From positions 10,899,943 to 10,963,942 of the forward strand of contig CM041199.1 in the NCBI GenBank assembly GCA_023078555.1: a DNA stretch of 64,000 nt, read 5' to 3'. Each line of letters opens with the position of its first letter. The first letter of the stretch is position 1. This document shows positions 1 to 17,027 of this stretch, in pieces. The notes below the pieces were generated by a model. It was not told the origin of the DNA. It saw only the letters and a list, made by a program, of their open reading frames with translations, and did not search any database. This DNA comes from Ulva prolifera (taxonomy: Eukaryota > Chlorophyta > Ulvophyceae > Ulvales > Ulvaceae). A program made the translations under genes and the position numbers.

Positions 1-621
1 GCTGCTGACTCCCAGGAGTGGCGTGGGGCAAAAGTGCACACTTTTCACCAACCATGTGAATGGACTTGGTTGTAGCCACGCAACCCCCCGCGCATCAAAA
101 GGTACGTCGCCATGAACATTCCAAGATGTTGGAGGGTATGGGATGATTATCATTCATTGCATATTTGCTGCTGACTCCCGGGAGTGGCGTGGGGCAAAAG
201 TGCACACTTTTCACCAACCTTGTGAATGGACTTGGCTATAGACAAGCATACCCCCGCGCACCATAGGGAAGTTGCCAGAAACATCCTTTGATTCTGAAAG
301 ATCTAGGACGTCAAGTATGCATTGCACAGTTGTTGCTAACTCCTAGGAGTGGCGTGGAACAAAAGTGCACACTTTTCACCAACCATGTGAATGGACTTGG
401 TTGTAGCCACGCAACCCCCCGCGCAGCAAAAGGTACGTCGCCATCAACATTCCAAGATGTTGGGGGGTATGGGATGTCCATCATTCATTGCGTATTTTCT
501 GCAGACACCATGGAGTGGTGTGGTGCAAAAGTGCACACTTTCCACCAACCCATGTGAATGGACTTGGTTGTAGCCACGCAACCCCCCGCGCATCAAAAGG
601 TACGTCCCCATGGACATTCAA

Positions 622-2691
622 AGATGTTGGGGGGTATGGGATGTCCATCATCCATTGCGTATTTTCTGCAGACACCATGGAGTGGTGTGGTGCAAAAGTG
701 CACACTTTCCACCAACCCATGTGAATGGACTTGGTTGTAGCCACGCAACCCCCCGCGCATCAAAAGGTACGTCGCCATGAACATTCCAAGATGTTGTGGG
801 GTATGGGATGATTATCATTCATTGCATATTTGCTGCTGACTCCCAGGAGTGGCGTGGGGCAAAAGTGCACACTTTTCACCAACCTTGTGAATGGACTTGG
901 CTATAGACAAGCATACCCCCGCGCACCATAGGGAAGTTGCCAGAAACATCCTTTGATTCTGAAAGATCTAGGACGTCAAGTATGCATTGCACAGTTGTTG
1001 CTAACTCCTAGGAGTGGCGTGGAACAAAAGTGCACACTTTTCACCAACCATGTGAATGGACTTGGTTGTAGCCACGCAACCCCCCGCGCAGCAAAAGGTA
1101 CGTCGCCATCAACATTCCAAGATTTTGGGGGGTATGGGATGTCCATCATTCATTGCGTATTTTCTGCAGACACCATGGCGTGGTGTGGTGCAAAAGTGCA
1201 CATTTTCCACCAACCCATGTGAATGGACTTGGTTGTACCCACGCACCCCCTGCGCATCAAAAGGTACGTCGCCATCAACATTCCAAGATGTCGGGGGGTA
1301 TGGGATGTCCATCATTCATTGCGTATTTTCTGCAGACACCATGGAGTGGTGTGGTGCAAAAGTGCACACTTTCCACCAACCCATGTGAATGGACTTGGTT
1401 GTAGCCACGCAACCCCCCGCGCATCAAAAGGTACGTCCCCATGAACATTCAAAGATGTTGGGGGGTATGGGATGTCCATCATTCATTGCGTATTTTCTGC
1501 AGACACCATGGAGTGGTGTGGTGCAAAAGTGCACACTTTCCACCAACCCATGTGAATGGACTTGGTTGTAGCCACGCAACCCCCCGCGCATCAAAAGGTA
1601 CGTCCCCATGAACATTCCAAGATGTTGGGGGGTATGGGATGTCCATCATCCATTGCGTATTTTCTGCAGACACCATGGAGTGGTGTGGTGCAAAAGTGCA
1701 CACTTTCCACCAACCCATGTGAATGGACTTGGTTGTAGCCACGCAACCCCCCGCGCATCAAAAGGTACGTCGCCATGAACATTCCAAGATGTTGTGGGGT
1801 ATGGGATGATTATCATTCATTGCATATTTGCTGCTGACTCCCAGGAGTGGCGTGGGGCAAAAGTGCACACTTTTCACCAACCTTGTGAATGGACTTGGCT
1901 ATAGACAAGCATACCCCCGCGCACCATAGGGAAGTTGCCAGAAACATCCTTTGATTCTGAAAGATCTAGGACGTCAAGTATGCATTGCACAGTTGTTGCT
2001 AACTCCTAGGAGTGGCGTGGAACAAAAGTGCACACTTTTCACCAACCATGTGAATGGACTTGGTTGTAGCCACGCAACCCCCCGCGCAGCAAAAGGTACG
2101 TCGCCATCAACATTCCAAGATTTTGGGGGGTATGGGATGTCCATCATTCATTGCGTATTTTCTGCAGACACCATGGCGTGGTGTGGTGCAAAAGTGCACA
2201 TTTTCCACCAACCCATGTGAATGGACTTGGTTGTACCCACGCACCCCCTGCGCATCAAAAGGTACGTCGCCATCAACATTCCAAGATGTTGGGGGGTATG
2301 GGATGTCCATCATTCATTGCGTATTTTCTGCAGACACCATGGAGTGGTGTGGTGCAAAAGTGCACACTTTCCACCAACCCATGTGAATGGACTTGGTTGT
2401 AGCCACGCAACCCCCCGCGCATCAAAAGGTACGTCCCCATGAACATTCAAAGATGTTGGGGGGTATGGGATGTCCATCATTCATTGCGTATTTTCTGCAG
2501 ACACCATGGAGTGGTGTGGTGCAAAAGTGCACACTTTCCACCAACCCATGTGAATGGACTTGGTTGTAGCCACGCAACCCCCCGCGCATCAAAAGGTACG
2601 TCCCCATGAACATTCCAAGATGTTGGGGGGTATGGGATGTCCATCATCCATTGCGTATTTTCTGCAGACACCATGGAGTGGTGTGGTGCAA
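622..2691 (+). repeat. 998-bp HOR (6-mer), tandem duplication
   Basis: The stretch from about 622 to 1693 matches about 1620 to 2691 at an offset of 998 bp. Shared landmarks include the unusual GTTGTGGGG tract of the B unit (near 793 and 1791), the GATTTTGG A unit and the ACCCACGCACCCCCTGCGC unit. One difference seen is GATGTCGG at about 1288 against GATGTTGG in the second copy. The match ends near 2692, where the second copy turns to AATGCACAC. Confidence 0.85.
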
Positions 2692-3050
2692 AAATGCACA
2701 CTTTCCACCAACCCATGTGAATGGACTTGGTTGTAGCCACGCAACCACCCGCGCAGCAAAAGGTACGTTGCCATCAACATTCCAAGATGTTGGGGGGTAT
2801 GGGATGTCCATCATTCATTGCGTATTTTCTGCAGACACCATGGCGTGGTGTGGTGCAAAAGTGTACACTTTCCACCAACCCATGTGAATGGACTTGGTTG
2901 TAGCCACGCAACCCCCCGCGCATCAAAAGGTACATCGCCATCAACATTCCAAGATGTTGGGGGGTATGGGATGTCCATCATTCATTGCGTATTTTCTGCA
3001 GACACCATGGAGTGGTGTGGTGCAAAAGTGCACACTTTCCACCAACCCAT

Positions 3051-3216
3051 GTGAATGGACTTGGTTGTAGCCACGCAACCCCCCGCGCATCAAAAGGTAC
3101 GTCGCCATGAACATTCCAAGATGTTGGGGGGTATGGGATGATTATCATTCATTGCATATTTGCTGCTGACTCCCAGGAGTGGCGTGGGGCAAAAGTGCAC
3201 ACTTTTCACCAACCAT
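3051..3216 (+). repeat. Type B monomer, representative (166 bp)
   Basis: The first half is like A. From GGGATGATTATCATTC onward it differs: CATATTTGCTGCTGACTCCCAGG, GTGGCGTGGGGC, then AAAAGTGCACACTTTTC and ACCAACCAT. B units occur singly or in pairs directly before C units. In a pair, the second B usually has GGAGGG where the first has an unbroken or TAGGGGG tract. Sub-variants include CCCGGG for CCCAGG and GGGCC with TTCTCC near the 3' end (22,800; 28,960; 32,630; 35,460; 47,100; 51,590). Confidence 0.95.
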
Positions 3217-3382
3217 GTGAATGGACTTGGTTGTAGCCACGCAACCCCCCGCGCATCAAAAGGTACGTCGCCATGAACATTCCAAGATGTTGGAGGGTAT
3301 GGGATGATTATCATTCATTGCATATTTGCTGCTGACTCCCGGGAGTGGCGTGGGGCAAAAGTGCACACTTTTCACCAACCTT

Positions 3383-3547
3383 GTGAATGGACTTGGCTAT
3401 AGACAAGCATACCCCCGCGCACCATAGGGAAGTTGCCAGAAACATCCTTTGATTCTGAAAGATCTAGGACGTCAAGTATGCATTGCACAGTTGTTGCTAA
3501 CTCCTAGGAGTGGCGTGGAACAAAAGTGCACACTTTTCACCAACCAT
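3383..3547 (+). repeat. Type C monomer, representative (165 bp), the HOR punctuation unit
   Basis: This is the most diverged unit. Ends match B (GTGAATGGACTTGG and GTGCACACTTTTCACC), but the centre reads CTATAGACAAGC, CACCATAGGGAAG, GATTCTGAAAGATCTAGG, TGCATTGCACAG and GCTAACTCCTAGG. It is still alignable with B along its length, so it is an old paralogous monomer rather than an insertion. It lacks the GGTACGT and CTGCAG landmarks of A. Fifty-three copies were located. Local variants: ATTTCACAG with CTTCCAGG (18424, 19585, 20248, 21244, 21575, 39210, 39873) and CTCCCAAG (57005, 57503, 59496, 63153). Confidence 0.95.
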
Positions 3548-3714
3548 GTGAATGGACTTGGTTGTAGCCACGCAACCCCCCGCGCAGCAAAAGGTACGTC
3601 GCCATCAACATTCCAAGATGTTGGGGGGTATGGGATGTCCATCATTCATTGCGTATTTTCTGCAGACACCATGGAGTGGTGTGGTGCAAAAGTGCACACT
3701 TTCCACCAACCCAT
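3548..3714 (+). repeat. Type A monomer, representative (167 bp)
   Basis: This is the commonest unit. Landmarks in order: GTGAATGGACTTGG, TTGTAGCCACGC, a C6 tract, AAAAGGTACGTCGCC, a G6 tract, GGGATGTCCATC, TATTTTCTGCAG, ACACCATGG, TGGTGTGGTGC, AAAAGTGCACACTTTCC and ACCAACCCAT. Frequent sub-variants include GTACCCACGCACCCCCTGCGC (166 bp, one base shorter), a G5 tract (one base shorter), GCGTGG for GAGTGG after CCAT, GTGTACAC for GTGCACAC, AATGCACAC, and GTCCCCATG, GTCGACATG or GTTGCCATC after GGTAC. Confidence 0.95.
3666..3708 (+). other. Two adjacent dyad symmetries in a type A monomer (representative)
   Basis: First dyad: ACACCA (3666-3671) and TGGTGT (3677-3682), separated by 5 bp. Second dyad: AAAGTG (3689-3694) and CACTTT (3697-3702) around a CA centre, flanked after a small 2x1 mismatch by TGGTG (3682-3686) and CACCA (3704-3708). 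In B and C units the inner arms become AAAAGTG and CACTTTT, a perfect 7-bp pair. In A units with GTGTAC the inner 14 bp form a perfect palindrome. Short dyads are a reported feature of centromeric satellites lacking CENP-B boxes. A role here is inference. Confidence 0.6.
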
Positions 3715-6700
3715 GTGAATGGACTTGGTTGTAGCCACGCAACCCCCCGCGCATCAAAAGGTACGTCCCCATGAACATTCAAAGATGTTGGGGGGTATGG
3801 GATGTCCATCATCCATTGCGTATTTTCTGCAGACACCATGGAGTGGTGTGGTGCAAAAGTGCACACTTTCCACCAACCCATGTGAATGGACTTGGTTGTA
3901 GCCACGCAACCCCCCGCGCATCAAAAGGTACGTCGCCATGAACATTCCAAGATGTTGGGGGGTATGGGATGATTATCATTCATTGCATATTTGCTGCTGA
4001 CTCCCAGGAGTGGCGTGGGGCAAAAGTGCACACTTTCCACCAACCCATGTGAATGGACTTGGTTGTAGCCACGCAACCCCCCGCGCATCAAAAGGTACGT
4101 CCCCATGAACATTCCAAGATGTTGGGGGGTATGGGATGTCCATCATCCATTGCGTATTTTCTGCAGACACCATGGAGTGGTGTGGTGCAAAAGTGCACAC
4201 TTTCCACCAACCCATGTGAATGGACTTGGTTGTAGCCACGCAACCCCCCGCGCATCAAAAGGTACGTCGACATGAACATTCCAAGATGTTGGGGGGTATG
4301 GGATGTCCATCATTCATTGCGTATTTTCTGCAGACACCATGGCGTGGTGTGGTGCAAAAGTGCACACTTTCCACCAACCCATGTGAATGCACTTGGTTGT
4401 AGCCACGCAACCCCCCGCGCATCAAAAGGTACGTCGCCATGAACATTCAAAGATGTTGGGGGGTATGGGATGTCCATCATTCATTGCGTATTTTCTGCAG
4501 ACACCATGGCGTGGTGTGGTGCAAAAATGCACACTTTCCACCAACCCATGTGAATGGACTTGGTTGTAGCCACGCAACCCCCCGCGCATCAAAAGGTACG
4601 TCGCCATGAACATTCAAAGATGTTGGGGGGTATGAGATGTCCATCATTCATTGCGTATTTTCTGCAGACACCATGGAGTGGTGTGGTGCAAAAATGCACA
4701 CTTTCCACCAACCCATGTGAATGGACTTGGTTGTAGCCACGCAACCACCCGCGCAGCAAAAGGTACGTTGCCATCAACATTCCAAGATGTTGGGGGGTAT
4801 GGGATGTCCATCATTCATTGCGTATTTTCTGCAGACACCATGGCGTGGTGTGGTGCAAAAGTGTACACTTTCCACCAACCCATGTGAATGGACTTGGTTG
4901 TAGCCACGCAACCCCCCGCGCATCAAAAGGTACATCGCCATCAACATTCCAAGATGTTGGGGGGTATGGGATGTCCATCATTCATTGCGTATTTTCTGCA
5001 GACACCATGGAGTGGTGTGGTGCAAAAGTGCACACTTTCCACCAACCCATGTGAATGGACTTGGTTGTAGCCACGCAACCCCCCGCGCATCAAAAGGTAC
5101 GTCGCCATGAACATTCCAAGATGTTGGGGGGTATGGGATGATTATCATTCATTGCATATTTGCTGCTGACTCCCAGGAGTGGCGTGGGGCAAAAGTGCAC
5201 ACTTTTCACCAACCATGTGAATGGACTTGGTTGTAGCCACGCAACCCCCCGCGCATCAAAAGGTACGTCGCCATGAACATTCCAAGATGTTGGAGGGTAT
5301 GGGATGATTATCATTCATTGCATATTTGCTGCTGACTCCCGGGAGTGGCGTGGGGCAAAAGTGCACACTTTTCACCAACCTTGTGAATGGACTTGGCTAT
5401 AGACAAGCATACCCCCGCGCACCATAGGGAAGTTGCCAGAAACATCCTTTGATTCTGAAAGATCTAGGACGTCAAGTATGCATTGCACAGTTGTTGCTAA
5501 CTCCTAGGAGTGGCGTGGAACAAAAGTGCACACTTTTCACCAACCATGTGAATGGACTTGGTTGTAGCCACGCAACCCCCCGCGCAGCAAAAGGTACGTC
5601 GCCATCAACATTCCAAGATGTTGGAGGGTATGGGATGATTATCATTCATTGCATATTTGCTGCTGACTCCCGGGAGTGGCGTGGGGCAAAAGTGCACACT
5701 TTTCACCAACCTTGTGAATGGACTTGGCTATAGACAAGCATACCCCCGCGCACCATAGGGAAGTTGCCAGAAACATCCTTTGATTCTGAAAGATCTAGGA
5801 CGTCAAGTATGCATTGCACAGTTGTTGCTAACTCCTAGGAGTGGCGTGGAACAAAAGTGCACACTTTTCACCAACCATGTGAATGGACTTGGTTGTAGCC
5901 ACGCAACCCCCCGCGCAGCAAAAGGTACGTCGCCATCAACATTCCAAGATGTTGGGGGGTATGGGATGTCCATCATTCATTGCGTATTTTCTGCAGACAC
6001 CATGGAGTGGTGTGGTGCAAAAGTGCACACTTTCCACCAACCCATGTGAATGGACTTGGTTGTAGCCACGCAACCCCCCGCGCATCAAAAGGTACGTCCC
6101 CATGAACATTCAAAGATGTTGGGGGGTATGGGATGTCCATCATCCATTGCGTATTTTCTGCAGACACCATGGAGTGGTGTGGTGCAAAAGTGCACACTTT
6201 CCACCAACCCATGTGAATGGACTTGGTTGTAGCCACGCAACCCCCCGCGCATCAAAAGGTACGTCGCCATGAACATTCCAAGATGTTGGGGGGTATGGGA
6301 TGATTATCATTCATTGCATATTTGCTGCTGACTCCCAGGAGTGGCGTGGGGCAAAAGTGCACACTTTCCACCAACCCATGTGAATGGACTTGGTTGTAGC
6401 CACGCAACCCCCCGCGCATCAAAAGGTACGTCCCCATGAACATTCCAAGATGTTGGGGGGTATGGGATGTCCATCATCCATTGCGTATTTTCTGCAGACA
6501 CCATGGAGTGGTGTGGTGCAAAAGTGCACACTTTCCACCAACCCATGTGAATGGACTTGGTTGTAGCCACGCAACCCCCCGCGCATCAAAAGGTACGTCG
6601 ACATGAACATTCCAAGATGTTGGGGGGTATGGGATGTCCATCATTCATTGCGTATTTTCTGCAGACACCATGGCGTGGTGTGGTGCAAAAGTGCACACTT

Positions 6701-7779
6701 TCCACCAACCCATGTGAATGCACTTGGTTGTAGCCACGCAACCCCCCGCGCATCAAAAGGTACGTCGCCATGAACATTCAAAGATGTTGGGGGGTATGGG
6801 ATGTCCATCATTCATTGCGTATTTTCTGCAGACACCATGGCGTGGTGTGGTGCAAAAATGCACACTTTCCACCAACCCATGTGAATGGACTTGGTTGTAG
6901 CCACGCAACCCCCCGCGCATCAAAAGGTACGTCGCCATGAACATTCAAAGATGTTGGGGGGTATGAGATGTCCATCATTCATTGCGTATTTTCTGCAGAC
7001 ACCATGGAGTGGTGTGGTGCAAAAATGCACACTTTCCACCAACCCATGTGAATGGACTTGGTTGTAGCCACGCAACCACCCGCGCAGCAAAAGGTACGTT
7101 GCCATCAACATTCCAAGATGTTGGGGGGTATGGGATGTCCATCATTCATTGCGTATTTTCTGCAGACACCATGGCGTGGTGTGGTGCAAAAGTGTACACT
7201 TTCCACCAACCCATGTGAATGGACTTGGTTGTAGCCACGCAACCCCCCGCGCATCAAAAGGTACATCGCCATCAACATTCCAAGATGTTGGGGGGTATGG
7301 GATGTCCATCATTCATTGCGTATTTTCTGCAGACACCATGGAGTGGTGTGGTGCAAAAGTGCACACTTTCCACCAACCCATGTGAATGGACTTGGTTGTA
7401 GCCACGCAACCCCCCGCGCATCAAAAGGTACGTCGCCATGAACATTCCAAGATGTTGGGGGGTATGGGATGATTATCATTCATTGCATATTTGCTGCTGA
7501 CTCCCAGGAGTGGCGTGGGGCAAAAGTGCACACTTTTCACCAACCATGTGAATGGACTTGGTTGTAGCCACGCAACCCCCCGCGCATCAAAAGGTACGTC
7601 GCCATGAACATTCCAAGATGTTGGAGGGTATGGGATGATTATCATTCATTGCATATTTGCTGCTGACTCCCGGGAGTGGCGTGGGGCAAAAGTGCACACT
7701 TTTCACCAACCTTGTGAATGGACTTGGCTATAGACAAGCATACCCCCGCGCACCATAGGGAAGTTGCCAGAAACATCCT

Positions 7780-8441
7780 TTGATTCTGAAAGATCTAGGA
7801 CGTCAAGTATGCATTGCACAGTTGTTGCTAACTCCTAGGAGTGGCGTGGAACAAAAGTGCACACTTTTCACCAACCATGTGAATGGACTTGGTTGTAGCC
7901 ACGCAACCCCCCGCGCAGCAAAAGGTACGTCGCCATCAACATTCCAAGATGTTGGAGGGTATGGGATGATTATCATTCATTGCATATTTGCTGCTGACTC
8001 CCGGGAGTGGCGTGGGGCAAAAGTGCACACTTTTCACCAACCTTGTGAATGGACTTGGCTATAGACAAGCATACCCCCGCGCACCATAGGGAAGTTGCCA
8101 GAAACATCCTTTGATTCTGAAAGATCTAGGACGTCAAGTATGCATTGCACAGTTGTTGCTAACTCCTAGGAGTGGCGTGGAACAAAAGTGCACACTTTTC
8201 ACCAACCATGTGAATGGACTTGGTTGTAGCCACGCAACCCCCCGCGCAGCAAAAGGTACGTCGCCATCAACATTCCAAGATGTTGGAGGGTATGGGATGA
8301 TTATCATTCATTGCATATTTGCTGCTGACTCCCGGGAGTGGCGTGGGGCAAAAGTGCACACTTTTCACCAACCTTGTGAATGGACTTGGCTATAGACAAG
8401 CATACCCCCGCGCACCATAGGGAAGTTGCCAGAAACATCCT
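7780..8441 (+). repeat. 331-bp C-B dimer, tandem copies
   Basis: Units 7780-8110 and 8111-8441 are each one C plus one B-like monomer (with GCAGCAAAAGG, CATCAACATT and GGAGGG) and look identical. The same dimer occurs at 5449-5779. This is the shortest HOR in the window. Confidence 0.9.
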
Positions 8442-9411
8442 TTGATTCTGAAAGATCTAGGACGTCAAGTATGCATTGCACAGTTGTTGCTAACTCCTAG
8501 GAGTGGCGTGGAACAAAAGTGCACACTTTTCACCAACCATGTGAATGGACTTGGTTGTAGCCACGCAACCCCCCGCGCAGCAAAAGGTACGTCGCCATCA
8601 ACATTCCAAGATGTTGGGGGGTATGGGATGTCCATCATTCATTGCGTATTTTCTGCAGACACCATGGAGTGGTGTGGTGCAAAAGTGCACACTTTCCACC
8701 AACCCATGTGAATGGACTTGGTTGTAGCCACGCAACCCCCCGCGCATCAAAAGGTACGTCGCCATGAACATTCCAAGATGTTGGAGGGTATGGGATGATT
8801 ATCATTCATTGCATATTTGCTGCTGACTCCCGGGAGTGGCGTGGGGCAAAAGTGCACACTTTTCACCAACCTTGTGAATGGACTTGGCTATAGACAAGCA
8901 TACCCCCGCGCACCATAGGGAAGTTGCCAGAAACATCCTTTGATTCTGAAAGATCTAGGACGTCAAGTATGCATTGCACAGTTGTTGCTAACTCCTAGGA
9001 GTGGCGTGGAACAAAAGTGCACACTTTTCACCAACCATGTGAATGGACTTGGTTGTAGCCACGCAACCCCCCGCGCAGCAAAAGGTACGTCGCCATCAAC
9101 ATTCCAAGATGTTGGGGGGTATGGGATGTCCATCATTCATTGCGTATTTTCTGCAGACACCATGGAGTGGTGTGGTGCAAAAGTGCACACTTTCCACCAA
9201 CCCATGTGAATGGACTTGGTTGTAGCCACGCAACCCCCCGCGCATCAAAAGGTACGTCCCCATGAACATTCAAAGATGTTGGGGGGTATGGGATGTCCAT
9301 CATCCATTGCGTATTTTCTGCAGACACCATGGAGTGGTGTGGTGCAAAAGTGCACACTTTCCACCAACCCATGTGTATGGACTTGGTTGTAGCCACGCAA
9401 CCCCCCGCGCA

Positions 9412-11390
9412 TCAAAAGGTACGTCGCCATGAACATTCCAAGATGTTGGGGGGTATGGGATGATTATCATTCATTGCATATTTGCTGCTGACTCCCAGGA
9501 GTGGCGTGGGGCAAAAGTGCACACTTTTCACCAACCATGTGAATGGACTTGGTTGTAGCCACGCAACCCCCCGCGCATCAAAAGGTACGTCGCCATGAAC
9601 ATTCCAAGATGTTGGAGGGTATGGGATGATTATCATTCATTGCATATTTGCTGCTGACTCCCAGGAGTGGCGTGGGGCAAAAGTGCACACTTTTCACCAA
9701 CCTTGTGAATGGACTTGGCTATAGACAAGCATACCCCCGCGCACCATAGGGAAGTTGCCAGAAACATCCTTTGATTCTGAAAGATCTAGGACGTCAAGTA
9801 TGCATTGCACAGTTGTTGCTAACTCCCAGGAGTGGCGTGGAACAAAAGTGCACACTTTTCACCAACCATGTGAATGGACTCGGTTGTAGCCACGCAACCC
9901 CCCGCGGAGCAAAAGGTACGTCGCCATCAACATTCCAAGATGTTGGGGGGTATGGGATGTCCATCATTCATTGCGTATTTTCTGCAGACACCATGGAGTG
10001 GTGTGGTGCAAAAGTGCACACTTTCCACCAACCCATGTGAATGGACTTGGTTGTAGCCACGCAACCCCCCGCGCATCAAAAGGTACGTCCCCATGAACAT
10101 TCAAAGATGTTTGGGGGTATGGGATGTCCATCATTCATTGCGTATTTTCTGCAGACACCATGGCGTGGTGTGGTGCAAAAATGCACACTTTCCACCAACC
10201 CATGTGAATGGACTTGGTTGTAGCCACGCAACCCCCCGCGCATCAAAAGGTACGTCGCCATGAACATTCAAAGATGTTGGGGGGTATGAGATGTCCATCA
10301 TTCATTGCGTATTTTCTGCAGACACCATGGAGTGGTGTGGTGCAAAAATGCACACTTTCCACCAACCCATGTGAATGGACTTGGTTGTAGCCACGCAACC
10401 CCCCGCGCATCAAAAGGTACGTCGCCATGAACATTCCAAGATGTTGGGGGGTATGGGATGATTATCATTCATTGCATATTTGCTGCTGACTCCCAGGAGT
10501 GGCGTGGGGCAAAAGTGCACACTTTTCACCAACCATGTGAATGGACTTGGTTGTAGCCACGCAACCCCCCGCGCATCAAAAGGTACGTCGCCATGAACAT
10601 TCCAAGATGTTGGAGGGTATGGGATGATTATCATTCATTGCATATTTGCTGCTGACTCCCAGGAGTGGCGTGGGGCAAAAGTGCACACTTTTCACCAACC
10701 TTGTGAATGGACTTGGCTATAGACAAGCATACCCCCGCGCACCATAGGGAAGTTGCCAGAAACATCCTTTGATTCTGAAAGATCTAGGACGTCAAGTATG
10801 CATTGCACAGTTGTTGCTAACTCCCAGGAGTGGCGTGGAACAAAAGTGCACACTTTTCACCAACCATGTGAATGGACTCGGTTGTAGCCACGCAACCCCC
10901 CGCGGAGCAAAAGGTACGTCGCCATCAACATTCCAAGATGTTGGGGGGTATGGGATGTCCATCATTCATTGCGTATTTTCTGCAGACACCATGGAGTGGT
11001 GTGGTGCAAAAGTGCACACTTTCCACCAACCCATGTGAATGGACTTGGTTGTAGCCACGCAACCCCCCGCGCATCAAAAGGTACGTCCCCATGAACATTC
11101 AAAGATGTTGGGGGGTATGGGATGTCCATCATTCATTGCGTATTTTCTGCAGACACCATGGCGTGGTGTGGTGCAAAAATGCACACTTTCCACCAACCCA
11201 TGTGAATGGACTTGGTTGTAGCCACGCAACCCCCCGCGCATCAAAAGGTACGTCGCCATGAACATTCAAAGATGTTGGGGGGTATGAGATGTCCATCATT
11301 CATTGCGTATTTTCTGCAGACACCATGGAGTGGTGTGGTGCAAAAATGCACACTTTCCACCAACCCATGTGAATGGACTTGGTTGTAGCC
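9412..11390 (+). repeat. 998-bp HOR (6-mer), tandem duplication
   Basis: About 9412-10392 matches 10410-11390 at an offset of 998. Private markers shared by both are GACTCGGTTG with CGCGGAGC (near 9887 and 10885) and CTCCCAGG in the C unit. One difference is GTTTGGGGG at about 10109 against GTTGGGGGG at about 11107. After 11390 the second copy continues into A units rather than a B pair. Confidence 0.85.
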
Positions 11391-12719
11391 ACGCAACCAC
11401 CCGCGCAGCAAAAGGTACGTTGCCATCAACATTCCAAGATGTTGGGGGGTATGGGATGTCCATCATTCATTGCGTATTTTCTGCAGACACCATGGAGTGG
11501 TGTGGTGCAAAAGTGCACACTTTCCACCAACCAATGTGAATGGACTTGGTTGTAGCCACGCAACCCCCCGCGCAGCAAAAGGTACGTTGCCATCAACATT
11601 CCAAGATGTTGGGGGGTATGGGATGTCCATCATTCATTGCGTATTTTCTGCAGACACCATGGAGTGGTGTGGTGCAAAAATGCACACTTTCCACCAACCA
11701 ATGTGAATGGACTTGGTTGTAGCCACGCAACCCCCCGCGCATCAAAAGGTACGTCGCCATGAACATTCAAAGATGTTGGGGGGTATGAGATGTCCATCAT
11801 TCATTGCGTATTTTCTGCAGACACCATGGAGTGGTGTGGTGCAAAAATGCACACTTTCCACCAACCCATGTGAATGGACTTGGTTGTAGCCACGCAACCC
11901 CCCGCGCAGCAAAAGGTACGTCGCCATCAACATTCCAAGATTTTGGGGGGTATGGGATGTCCATCATCCATTGCGTATTTTCTGCAGACACCATGGAGTG
12001 GTGTGGTGCAAAAGTGCACACTTTCCACCAACCCATGTGAATGGACTTGGTTGTAGCCACGCAACCCCCCGCGCAGCAAAAGGTACGTCGCCATCAACAT
12101 TCCAAGATTTTGGGGGGTATGGGATGTCCATCATTCATTGCGTATTTTCTGCAGACACCATGGCGTGGTGTGGTGCAAAAGTGCACACTTTCCACCAACC
12201 CATGTGAATGCACTTGGTTGTAGCCACGCAACCCCCCGCGCATCAAAAGGTACGTCGCCATGAACATTCAAAGATGTTGGGGGGTATGAGATGTCCATCA
12301 TTCATTGCGTATTTTCTGCAGACACCATGGAGTGGTGTGGTGCAAAAATGCACACTTCCCACCAACCCATGTGAATGGACTTGGTTGTAGCCACGCAACC
12401 CCCCGCGCAGCAAAAGGTACGTTGCCATCAACATTCCAAGATGTTGGGGGGTATGGGATGTCCATCATTCATTGCGTATTTTCTGCAGACACCATGGCGT
12501 GGTGTGGTGCAAAAGTGTACACTTTCCACCAACCCATGTGAATGGACTTGGTTGTAGCCACGCAACCCCCCGCGCATCAAAAGGTACATCGCCATCAACA
12601 TTCCAAGATGTTGGGGGGTATGGGATGTCCATCATTCATTGCGTATTTTCTGCAGACACCATGGCTTGGTGTGGTGCAAAAGTGCACACTTTCCACCAAC
12701 CCATGTGAATGGACTTGGT

Positions 12720-12721
12720 TG
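12720..12721. other. Target-site duplication TG, left copy
   Basis: Satellite reads GGTTG up to 12721 and the inserted element starts at 12722. The uninterrupted monomer reads GGTTGTAGCC, so only one TG is expected, and a second copy lies beyond the right end. Two bases is short, so microhomology is an alternative to a true target duplication. Confidence 0.55.
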
Positions 12722-12775
12722 CACAGGTTCTACGCCACACTTGCACACCCAGGTGCGCCACTGGACTGGGTGCGC
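12722..12775 (+). repeat. Left terminal inverted repeat of the insertion
   Basis: The left end reads CACAGG, then ACG at positions 11-13, TGCACACCCA at 21-30 and TGGGTGCGC at 46-54 from the terminus. The reverse complement of the right end has the same four blocks at positions 1-6, 11-13, 21-30 and 44-52. The first three are in perfect register and the last is shifted by 2 bp. The stretches between blocks are largely unmatched. This spaced-block pattern suggests short protein-binding sites at fixed distances from the cut site, which is an inference. Confidence 0.7.
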
Positions 12776-15321
12776 GATCTTGGGGTGAGCCGAATCGTAA
12801 GTCCTTGGGAAATGCGAGATTTGATGATCTCAAGGTATCATTGTGCTCTAGAGTCAGTTTAACATACGTTGGTGGGCTTGGAACCCCTGTGATAGCTAGG
12901 GGATGCATCTAATGGCCACCCATCACCTTTTCTGCCCACCTGGTGGGTGCTCCATGTCCAAAGGTGCGCCGACAGTGGGTGAGCTGGTCTGGCGAAGTCA
13001 CTGCAACCGGGTCTGCGGCAGGCCTAATCGTGTTGGAATGCAAAATCACAGTACCAGAGTTGCTGTACAGCTGTTGGAATGTGGAGCTGGGTTCCTGGAG
13101 CGTGGGTCACTACGAACAGCTCACCCAAAGGGTGTGCCATGGTTCTGAGTGAGGTGTGCTTTGTGGGAACCTGGCCGATGAAAGGCCCATCGCCATGGGG
13201 ATTCGCAGAGCATGGCATGTTACACCATCTCATCAAGTGGAGGAAGACTGTTCGGCTCAGTCTGCTGGTTGGATACTGTGTACTATGTGAAGGTTGTGGA
13301 TGAGCCTGTTCAAGTCAACACTGAGGCGGGCTCAGCACCCGCTGCACATGCCAATGTGAATTTAGTTGGCTTAAATCAGCTGGGATGTGTCCGTGAATGG
13401 TGAATGGAGATTGCACGTGGTGTCCATGCCGTGTGACTGAAGTACGAGCCAACTGCGCCATACACCAGATCAGATATCCGTGCATTCACATAAATCTGTC
13501 ACCATTGAAGAGCATGCTGTAATCCGTGGTCGATTGTCCGCAAGGTCTGTCCTAGCAAAGGCCACACATGTACAGAGCCATCGACAGCCCGTTCAATGGT
13601 GTTGCAGGCGTGCAAAATTCCGTCATGTCATATCCAACGGTCTACACAAAGTGCAGCATCCTTGAATGCGGCGCATTGCAATGGCGCGCGATGGTGTTCA
13701 TGCTTTCAGACGTCGCCGAGGTACGAACAACTGTAGATCAGTGCATCGTTGCCACTCCGCCACACATGGTTGAACATCAGAAGACCCGTGCAGCTGACAG
13801 CTATCCCACGTACGCCAGTGCAAGACATGTTATACTGGTGCAATTACATGTCGAAGCGATTGCATGGACAGATAACGGCCAGGACACAGCATTCGCGTGT
13901 AGTACTTGCGGTAGCGTCGCCTGCAGGCAGCCGTCGCTACGAAACATGATTACTTTCTGAAGTGGATATTTACCTTTGGCGCGTTAGGGAGGCTTGTGAT
14001 GCTGCGTCGATCAGCTCTTGCATGTCGCCGTGTCAGTTGCAGCTCCCCGTTGCAGTATAACTAGGTGATCTGCATTCACCGATGGCGTAGATCGTTTCGC
14101 AAGTATGTATTACTTTATCCTCCATGGTATAATATCTTTTATGTCTGTACACTGTGCTGTCACGCAAATTTCACGAGCACTCGTTGTTGATCAAGCCCCT
14201 CGAGCAGGCCCCGAGCCCGGCGAAGACAAGGGCGAGCTTGTGTTCGCGTGAGTGACGTTGATTAGACTCTTTCTGTTCCATGGATTGTCTTGAAATGGTG
14301 CATACCTCGAAGCGTTTGCCTGATGTCAAGAGCTGTGCGTGCGTGCAGGTGCACTTGCTACACCTCTCCAACTTGAGACACAGATCCGATGTCGACAGTC
14401 AATGTGTATTTTTCAACTTCAATCAGAGACCTTTGTTGAGCAGAGGTTCGTTCTGAGACTGTCAAGCTAGCAATTGACTTTTCGTTGCAGCTTTAGCACA
14501 AACGGTCGGTCACATGATTATGATACATTTGCTGTAAATGGTCACAACGCCTGGCTGTTGTAGCTGATGTCCTGACACGGATGGCTGCCAGCTCTGGACG
14601 TCTCAGGAATACTTGCTCATGTAGGTCTACAACCAGCACACAGATTGCAACATACAGAGATTGAGGCATCGACAATCAGTACAGCCACAATGAGGACATG
14701 CAGCATATATCTGCTGACCGAACTGGCCTGATGGTCCAAATGGTTCGCTGCTGCCCCGATAGCTTGCTGATGTGTTCAGTCGATCGATAGACTCATTTCA
14801 TACTAAGATGCTTTGAATATGAAAAAACTGATCGCATGCAGGATGGCAATGGCCAAAGCTTTGGATACCTGACAAGACCGATGCAGTAAGCCTAGCATGG
14901 CAGGTGTGCATACACTGTCTTGCATCTCTGAATGCCACCTTGCACCTTCATTATTTTCTTTCCGTGAATTTTTACCCCGTAGATGCCTTGGTCTGTGCAA
15001 CAAGGCGTCATATCATCTCTGGTATGCAGGAGCAGACTTGGCGAAGGAGCAGACCTCCACTCGATAAGGCCACGTTCAATTGTGCAGTGAGCAAGTATAT
15101 ACCAGCTAGTGTCGATTTGATGGTGAATGTTGAGTGTATTTAATGTATGGTAGTAAGCAATTTGAGCAAGACTGAGCAGTGCATGGTGGGAGCGACTTGA
15201 GGTGGTTCAAGGACCACCGTAGATTGGCGCCAGCGATGATAGGAATGTACCAAACACGTATTACAATGCTGTACCTGATTATGAAGCATCTATTTGATGA
15301 TTTGCGTGTTCAGGCAATTCA
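12776..15321. other. Element interior, left part; no gene recognised
   Basis: About 2.5 kb of mixed-composition DNA unrelated to the satellite. The longest open frame (13568-13960, plus strand, about 130 codons) shows no motif I recognise and has no equally open neighbour. I do not regard it as a gene. The first 400 bp carry repeated CACCCA/TGGGTG hexamers (12746, 12767, 12944, 12976, 13122) and a short palindrome, CCCACC-T-GGTGGG, at 12935-12947. None of these hexamers was found from about 13130 to 15320. An AT-richer patch lies near 14101-14160. I saw no tRNA-like fold, microsatellite or long internal repeat. Confidence 0.6.
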
Positions 15322-15439
15322 GCGCACCCAGCATGCTCACGCATACATGTGTCGCGCACTCGATGGCGCACTCTAGTGGGTGAGCCTTGGTTTCACAGGC
15401 GCACAAACGCGAGTGGGTGCGCAGACGCAGAGTGCGCCA
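15322..15439. repeat. Internal cluster of terminus-like motifs in the element
   Basis: Positions 15322-15351 read like the right end of the element (16491-16520) in the same orientation: GCGCACCCA, one change, CATGCTCAC, one change, CAT, then TGTG after three changes. About 40 bp later, 15394-15422 contains CACAGG followed by TGGGTGCGC, the outer and inner blocks of the left end, although 25 bp closer together than at the true end. Perfect 11-bp inverted arms, TGGCGCACTCT and AGAGTGCGCCA, at 15364-15374 and 15429-15439 enclose the left-like part. The right-end-then-left-end order could mean that the insertion is a fusion of two related elements (about 12722-15352 and 15394-16542), or that internal binding-site repeats exist. 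Confidence 0.45.
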
Positions 15440-16490
15440 ACTAGAAGACGTGCGATATGGCACACAATCAAGGCTAATTGCCCGCTATCATATTGCATAA
15501 GTGATCCTGGGCAAAACTGTGTCCAGCGACATCGAATTGATGAATATCGATCGGTGTGCAGTGGCCCGCGAATCGTAACGCACGGAGGCTTCCACATTGT
15601 CATCGTGCAACTGGTACTATGCACTTATCATATGAAAGAGTACTTGCATTCAGCGAGATTGTGTTGAGCGGGGCGTTCGCGCGGGCTGCAACCTCACATT
15701 CATGCTTGCAGTGCGCTTTGCTTTACTGGCAACGCCACGTAACCAGAAGCTTTTGGCACACCATTTCGCGGCTGATATAATCAGATCTCACCATCGTGAA
15801 AACACTGTGGACATGATCGTGGCTTTGCCACGGATGACAGCAGACAGCTTGGGCATTTTCGCAACAGCACGAACACACACGACACCTGGCATGTCCTGAT
15901 TTGGCTGGAGTCGGCACTCGTATACATACCAAAGAGCTTTCTGTTATTCCTGACGTAGACTTCTCGCGCGCACGGAACCTATAGTGGATCTCTCCAACAT
16001 ACAGAGCATACGATGGCCGCGCATGTATCTGTCTCACTGCAAGCGAACCAGTCACAGGATGGCATGCAGCAGCAGACTAACATAACTAGAGTTCACCAAT
16101 TGGCTTAAGCCATACACTTTAGCCTTTTCCGGCCTTGGATCTGGATTGTACTATCAATTCGTGCTGCGTTGCCGCGGAGCCATGGCATCACGGAGCGGAC
16201 ACGAGAGAGCCGGATCATGGCAGACCGTGCCGCAAACCAGTCATGTGTACAAACTAAGTAACTAAGAACATTATTGTACGGTCTGTGCACAATGCTATGT
16301 CTCCTGCGTGCCATGTCACCGTTCGCTGCGTCGCGTCCGAGCCACTATCATGAAGCCACGGGAGGCCAAGTGCTCCAGCGATCACCTTCGGAATGCTTCC
16401 TTGATCCATTAAATGTACATATCTACTACTGTGGGCCTTCACGAGCCAAATTGAAGCTGTTTCAGCACATTTAATATTTCAGTGCAGCTT
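15440..16490. other. Element interior, right part; no gene recognised
   Basis: About 1 kb of unique-looking DNA between the internal motif cluster and the right TIR. The longest open frame is on the minus strand (15723-16055, about 110 codons). It is cysteine-rich in places but has no spacing I can assign to a known zinc-binding domain, so I do not call it a gene. No CACCCA/TGGGTG hexamers were found here until the right TIR. Confidence 0.55.
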
Positions 16491-16542
16491 GCGCACCCAA
16501 CATGCTCACCCATGGGTGTGCATGCTGGTCGTCTGCCCTGTG
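16491..16542 (-). repeat. Right terminal inverted repeat of the insertion
   Basis: Read from the outer edge inward on the minus strand, this end matches the left end at CACAGG, ACG, TGCACACCCA and TGGGTGCGC. It contains a perfect 12-bp palindrome, CACCCATGGGTG, at 16507-16518, which the left end lacks. The outer edge is fixed by the return of satellite sequence (TGTAGCCACGC) at 16543. Confidence 0.7.
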
Positions 16543-16544
16543 TG
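16543..16544. other. Target-site duplication TG, right copy
   Basis: TG follows the terminal CCTGTG of the element and precedes TAGCCACGC of the interrupted monomer. Counting this TG only once gives an exact 167-bp monomer across the insertion. Confidence 0.55.
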
Positions 16545-17027
16545 TAGCCACGCAACCCCCCGCGCATCAAAAGGTACGTCGCCATCAACATTCCAAGATG
16601 TTGGGGGGTATGGGATGTCCATCATTCATTGCGTATTTTCTGCAGACACCATGGAGTGGTGTGGTGCAAAAGTGCACATTTTCCACCAACCCATGTGAAT
16701 GGACTTGGTTGTACCCACGCACCCCCTGCGCATCAAAAGGTACGTCGCCATCAACATTCCAAGATGTTGGGGGGTATGGGATGTCCATCATTCATTGCGT
16801 ATTTTCTGCAGACACCATGGAGTGGTGTGGTGTAAAAGTGCACACTTTCCACCAACCCATGTGAATGGACTTGGTTGTAGCCACGCAACCCCCCGCGCAT
16901 CAAAAGGTACGTCCCCATGAACATTCAAAGATGTTGGGGGGTATGGGATGTCCATCATCCATTGCGTATTTTCTGCAGACACCATGGAGTGGTGTGGTGC
17001 AAAAGCGCACACTTTCCACCAACCCAT

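Follow-up and report, generated by a model that had tools for sequence, protein, structure and literature searches.

A CACTA-like transposon inside a single satellite monomer and its probable multiplication along the array

Satellite units are near-identical, and the arrays that they form are therefore hard to follow. The locus described here raises the question of how 3.8 kb of other DNA came to lie inside one monomer of such an array, and whether it has been copied along with the array since. The window, which is the whole stretch of 64,000 nucleotides analysed, corresponds to C4:10899943-10963942 in an assembly of 88.9 Mb and 44 contigs and is almost wholly satellite. TRF places the 167-bp satellite (+ strand) at 15-12721 on the left side of the inserted element and at 16543-64000 on its right side. 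The monomers of the window measure 167 bp (167 of 359), 166 bp (132 of 359), 165 bp (59 of 359) and, in one case, 168 bp, hinting at interleaved subtypes and a higher-order structure.

The inserted element occupies 12722-16542 (+ strand), has 3821 bp, starts with CACAGG, ends with CCTGTG and splits a single 167-bp monomer. It is preceded by the bases TTGGTTG and followed by TGTAGCC, the dinucleotide TG at 12720-12721 being repeated at 16543-16544, and a regular monomer is regained once the 3821 bp and a single TG are excised. Flanks of 200 bp from each side, joined with one TG removed, give the best alignment with the uninterrupted array (97.75% over 400 bp, 1 gap column, 688 bits), and the same join with both TGs retained has 3 gap columns and 675 bits. 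This alignment and the survey of other copies given below mark the two TGs as the left and right copies of a 2-bp target site duplication (TSD). The insertion of 3,821 bp into one monomer, which the first-pass annotation had proposed, is thus borne out; its split of 17 + 150 bp is the same as the 2 + 165 bp (left + right) counted here after removal of one TG, merely in a different phase. An array boundary or a chance match of phase was considered and rejected, because the TSD and the other copies define exact ends.

The element has an imperfect terminal inverted repeat, whose 30-nt left arm (12722-12751, + strand) begins with CACAGG and is 70% complementary, and whose right arm (16513-16542, - strand) terminates in CCTGTG. 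Short GC(N)CACCC-like motifs are clustered on the left at 12743-13137 (element positions 22 to 409) and on the right at 16491-16522, and an inner cluster at 15322-15466 includes inverted repeat arms at 15359-15374 and 15429-15444. The outer 320 bp at either end hold 10 of the 16 motif sites versus 2.7 expected, an enrichment that is post hoc because the motif was picked by eye, with overlapping sites counted separately. Of the 48 listed open frames, which have at least 50 amino acids and in some cases extend into the satellite, eight were searched against Pfam, none with a match above the curated cut-off, and an Rfam search of the window gave no RNA family at gathering scores. The element, whose ends recur in other genomic copies, is a non-autonomous DNA transposon in which no coding gene is recognised.

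The DNA search of the genome with the element gave at least 44 matches, several of which are parts of one locus, and among the matches scored (40 of 43 candidates) only element copies, fragments and relatives are recognisable. A captured host gene was set aside on these matches and on the Pfam result for the eight frames. Both ends are readable at 16 loci, which are the window, L005-L009, L011-L015, L032-L035 and a 10.8-kb relative (L026/L027), with the array insertion counted once. This count leaves out L002-L004, which have the window's junction, L010, whose left end is missing, L016, L017, L019 and L020, which are the places of L032-L035, and the fragments and diverged or one-ended matches L018, L025, L028-L031 and L036-L039. 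Copies start with CACAGG and end with CCTGTG, and so have CAC..GTG termini, at 15 of the 16 loci, L009 being without the first 3 bp on the left; copies with other ends were what the first-pass annotation had named as a refutation. The array copy L002, counted together with the window, ends in ACTGTG. A 2-bp target duplication is present at 14 of the 16 loci, the exceptions being L007, which has AA versus TT, and L009, whose left end has no CAC. The duplicated dinucleotides (TG, CT, TT, CC, AC, CG, AT and AG) vary between loci, and therefore no target rule is evident. The order of events first suggested, in which the array existed before the element entered and duplicated TG, is supported by this frequency of 2-bp TSDs and by element copies that diverge less than monomers.

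In L035 an internal deletion leaves a copy of 2368 bp. At L018 (C2:10456092-10461451, position 1500) the element reads as far as its position 2359 and there meets a second end of CACAGG type; this copy looks as if invaded by a related element. In L032, L033 and L034 the element is interrupted by roughly 1179, 758 and 1474 bp of inserted sequence and overlaps at the break by 9, 4 and 7 bp, as if these copies had been struck by other transposons. L011 and L013 also lie, around position 1500, within long tandem repeats, which have periods of 45 and 33 bp.

The left junction between satellite and CACAGG occurs 4 times in the genome and the right junction 5 times, at up to 2 mismatches; all junction matches are on the + strand of C4, spread over about 650 kb, and the reversed-pattern control gives 0. 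The tagged places are C4:10.385, 10.537, 10.644, 10.913 and 11.034 Mb, of which 10.913 is the window and 10.537 has its left end missing. The earlier statement that the element has not been amplified with the array therefore holds for the 64-kb window and fails for the array, C4 having four more places with this junction. The array copies differ mutually by 0 to 13 bases of 3821 (at most 0.34%). At element positions 299 and 1799 all five have A, a base absent from the other aligned copies (11 at 299 and 12 at 1799, in an alignment that leaves out L032-L035 and smaller fragments). In a tree of 14 copies, which omits L004 (identical to L003), the partial L018 and L025, and L032-L035, the array copies separate from the rest with an ultrafast bootstrap of 94, just below the usual 95.

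The flanking monomers also bear on a common origin. The right part of the split monomer, including the duplicated TG (16543-16709, + strand), is identical at 167 of 167 positions beside L003, L004 and L010, and over the first three monomers of the right flank the window differs from each of these copies by 0, 1 and 1. The right flanks of the window and L010 remain close for about 10 monomers. Random pairs of 167-bp monomers in the window have a median of 6 differences (3.6%) and a 5th percentile of 1, with 1.4% of 500 pairs identical, and the junction monomer is at distance 2 from 17 monomers of the window. Junction counts, shared bases, flanks and tree agree with several copies that have the same junction and derive from one ancestral insertion. 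Because the array copies differ by at most 0.34%, versus a monomer median of 3.6%, the insertion appears to postdate most of the diversity among monomers.

Between L003 and L004, the 3821-bp element and 1500 bp of either flank show no difference. Satellite matches near these two copies are paired at offsets of 388.9 to 392.0 kb, which reach C4:10.763 and 11.152 Mb, and C4:10638895-10763524 pairs with C4:11028350-11152439. On its right L003 has a 2497-bp (15-monomer) tandem duplication, which has no counterpart at L004 in the 5.5 kb compared, and the step of the offset from 389,455 to 391,952 agrees with this gain of 2497 bp. From these comparisons of sequence, it seems that a block of more than 100 kb was duplicated inside the array and that whole monomers were gained and lost. 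Satellite matches are also paired at an offset of 482,195 bp (10414935/10897130 and 10415152/10897347), a hint of a further duplicated block. The left flanks of the array copies agree far less, and the right flank of L002 is rearranged beyond one monomer; unequal exchange, repeated near the insertion, could produce such dissimilar left flanks, in agreement with the model presented in the available part of PMC2853522. In L010, the satellite joins element position 220 at a common TGG and the left 219 bp are gone, pointing to a deletion of about 231 bp by microhomology.

The 10.8-kb relative, which has 10,778 bp at C4:7943755-7954532, has similar ends and an AT target duplication. Its identity with the element is 68% over the left 476 bp, 84% over a shared 115-bp block at window 15352-15466, and 72% over the right 238 bp. 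Clustered subterminal repeats are found at similar positions in both, and the inner motif cluster begins 1220 bp from the right end of the element and 1222 bp from that of the relative; this matching layout is better evidence than the enrichment count. Comparable scores and block spacing on C4, C1 and C2 (9585, 9625 and 9591 bp) suggest two more copies of the large relative on C1 and C2. The open frames of the 10.8-kb relative match diverged relatives, with changes biased towards the third codon position. Against L031, changes at codon positions 1, 2 and 3 number 36, 22 and 104 (196 codons) and 68, 55 and 134 (219 codons) in two frames, and 46, 44 and 88 (135 codons) and 59, 39 and 92 (157 codons) in further ones. 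Against L030 the codon bias is weak, with 21, 24 and 30 changes over 326 codons, a dN of 0.069 and a dS of 0.122, and a stop is present within some of these stretches in both L030 and L031. One open frame of the relative has CDKC and a later one has HIPPH, which are transposase-like motifs whose catalytic residues are not established. Pfam searches of 10 open frames of the relatives gave no match above the cut-off and no transposase family whatever, and the search of the genome with PF02992 gave 0 matches, as did its controls, so it is uninformative.

Clustered subterminal repeats are a feature of CACTA/EnSpm transposons. According to the available part of PMC12730594, the EnSpm-type (CMCT) clade has 5'-CA..TG-3' termini, which are CAC..GTG in EnSpm, the target duplications of CMCT have 2 to 5 bp, and the DDE transposase of the EnSpm-type clade has C(2)C and H(3-4)H motifs. 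The termini, the subterminal motifs and the transposase-like motifs of the relative point to this clade, and the 2-bp duplication at 14 of the 16 loci lies within the CMCT range. The family resembles CACTA/EnSpm (CMC or CMCT clade) in its CAC..GTG termini, short imperfect inverted repeats and clusters of subterminal motifs, and in having short non-coding copies alongside a larger, candidate coding relative. It differs in its 2-bp duplication, that of CACTA being given as 3 bp in the accessible text of PMC4158355, and in ending with CACAGG, not CACTA; its transposase membership is that of a candidate. A 3-bp duplication of the plant type was tested at the 16 loci and found at 0 of 16. Because of this and because no transposase is matched in Pfam, the element is filed as CACTA-like in the wide clade and not as plant-type. 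It is unlikely that it belongs to another group of DNA transposons with 2-bp duplications, such as Plavaka-like or Harbinger-related elements, and not to CACTA/EnSpm proper. Such duplications are known also from Plavaka and Harbinger relatives (PMC12730594, in the part available) and the lack of a Pfam transposase match would suit that assignment, whereas the CAC..GTG ends, the clustered motifs and the succession of C(2)C and H(3)H fit the EnSpm-type clade as described there.

The copies along C4 are very probably explained by a single CACTA-like insertion, with TG duplicated, that was then multiplied within the array by recombination. In a single cut-and-paste event the non-autonomous transposon would have entered one 167-bp monomer behind its TG and duplicated this 2-bp target. 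Its transposase would most likely have come in trans from a larger relative, represented in the genome by the 10.8-kb copy with transposase-like frames. Unequal exchange and block duplication would then have copied the satellite stretch that bears the insertion within the array, to its present five places spread across about 650 kb, at one of which the left 219 bp are gone. Counting against this explanation are the loci without a 2-bp duplication (L007 and L009), the dissimilar left flanks, the rearranged right flank of L002, the 10 frames of the relatives without a Pfam transposase and the stops in L030 and L031; low differences between monomers are also not rare singly, as about 5% of random pairs have at most 1.

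Independent insertions by a transposase that chooses the same base of the monomer are highly improbable: some taste for repeats is possible, because 3 of the 16 insertion loci (the window, L011 and L013) lie within long tandem repeats, but the duplicated dinucleotides differ from locus to locus, the array copies form one group and most of them have flank variants in common, and the four full copies are all at the same base and in the same orientation, among 334 possibilities per monomer (1 in 334 each if there is no preference). An assembly artefact, in which one insertion was falsely duplicated to give the extra array copies or part of them, is improbable too, if somewhat less so. The identity of L003 and L004 over the element and 1500 bp on each side would suit it, and the scaffolding here is imperfect, because C4 ends in a 5-kb N run followed by an element fragment (L025) that matches L009 on C7 without mismatch. 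However, the window, L002, L003 and L010 have 1 to 13 mutual differences and differ in their flanks, and the right-hand tandem duplication of L003, which L004 lacks in the stretch compared, is matched by the offset step.

At the end of C4, L025 (C4:11173603-11183602) runs from satellite through 5 kb of N into a 1.4-kb fragment of the element; this fragment was dropped as a sixth array copy, given its place behind the N run and its perfect match to L009. Close to the ends of C3 and C7, L036 and L037 start again beside N runs, with a right flank that resembles that of L009. A scaffolding problem at these contig ends is likely.

One 21-mer of the satellite is present 2529 times in the genome, on a single strand, the first occurrences listed being all on C4 from 10,095,962 onwards, and the satellite search gave at least 131 matches, every one on C4 (18 of 282 candidates scored). 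The satellite is likely confined to C4. Telomere-type repeats were found in none of the five contig-end stretches examined, and searching the literature for an algal satellite of 167 bp gave nothing relevant. The genome has 38 matches to the chlorophyll-binding family, among them a frame of 221 residues that in one stretch is closest to chains named Lhcb or chlorophyll a-b binding protein, with chains the size of LHC polyproteins (9vfj) scoring higher over several stretches; the source is accordingly read as a green alga. It is conceivable, although less likely than not, that the sampled array of about 1 Mb is an algal centromere, in which case its transposon-tagged blocks would record its turnover.

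ATHILA in the centromeres of Arabidopsis and the transposon-bearing repeat units of human satellites are insertions that were multiplied within arrays. The present case would be like them, with one insertion copied together with flanking satellite through array recombination, and unlike them in that a DNA transposon is involved, in an apparent green alga and in an array that is only possibly centromeric. ATHILA insertions are marked in Arabidopsis arrays in the available part of PMC10804481, which does not address their copying. For human alpha satellite, the available part of PMC2853522 presents a model of unequal crossover, in which array segments are homogenised locally and amplified as they may be here; unlike the present analysis, it tracks diagnostic nucleotides, and that text has neither "transpos" nor "insertion". 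The constituent processes are each known elsewhere.

The analysis adds a CACTA-like family with 2-bp duplications and a candidate coding relative in an apparent green alga. An insertion of known starting state marks descent in an array, and the tagged insertion is a handy marker of how this array copies itself. Its five copies suggest that array segments move over hundreds of kilobases and that adjoining monomers are gained or lost. If the centromere reading is true, one insertion would have been copied repeatedly, across 0.1 to 0.65 Mb, and the few mutations of the element could put these rounds, the changes in monomer number around each copy and the one deletion in order, giving a clocked measure of long-range satellite copying.
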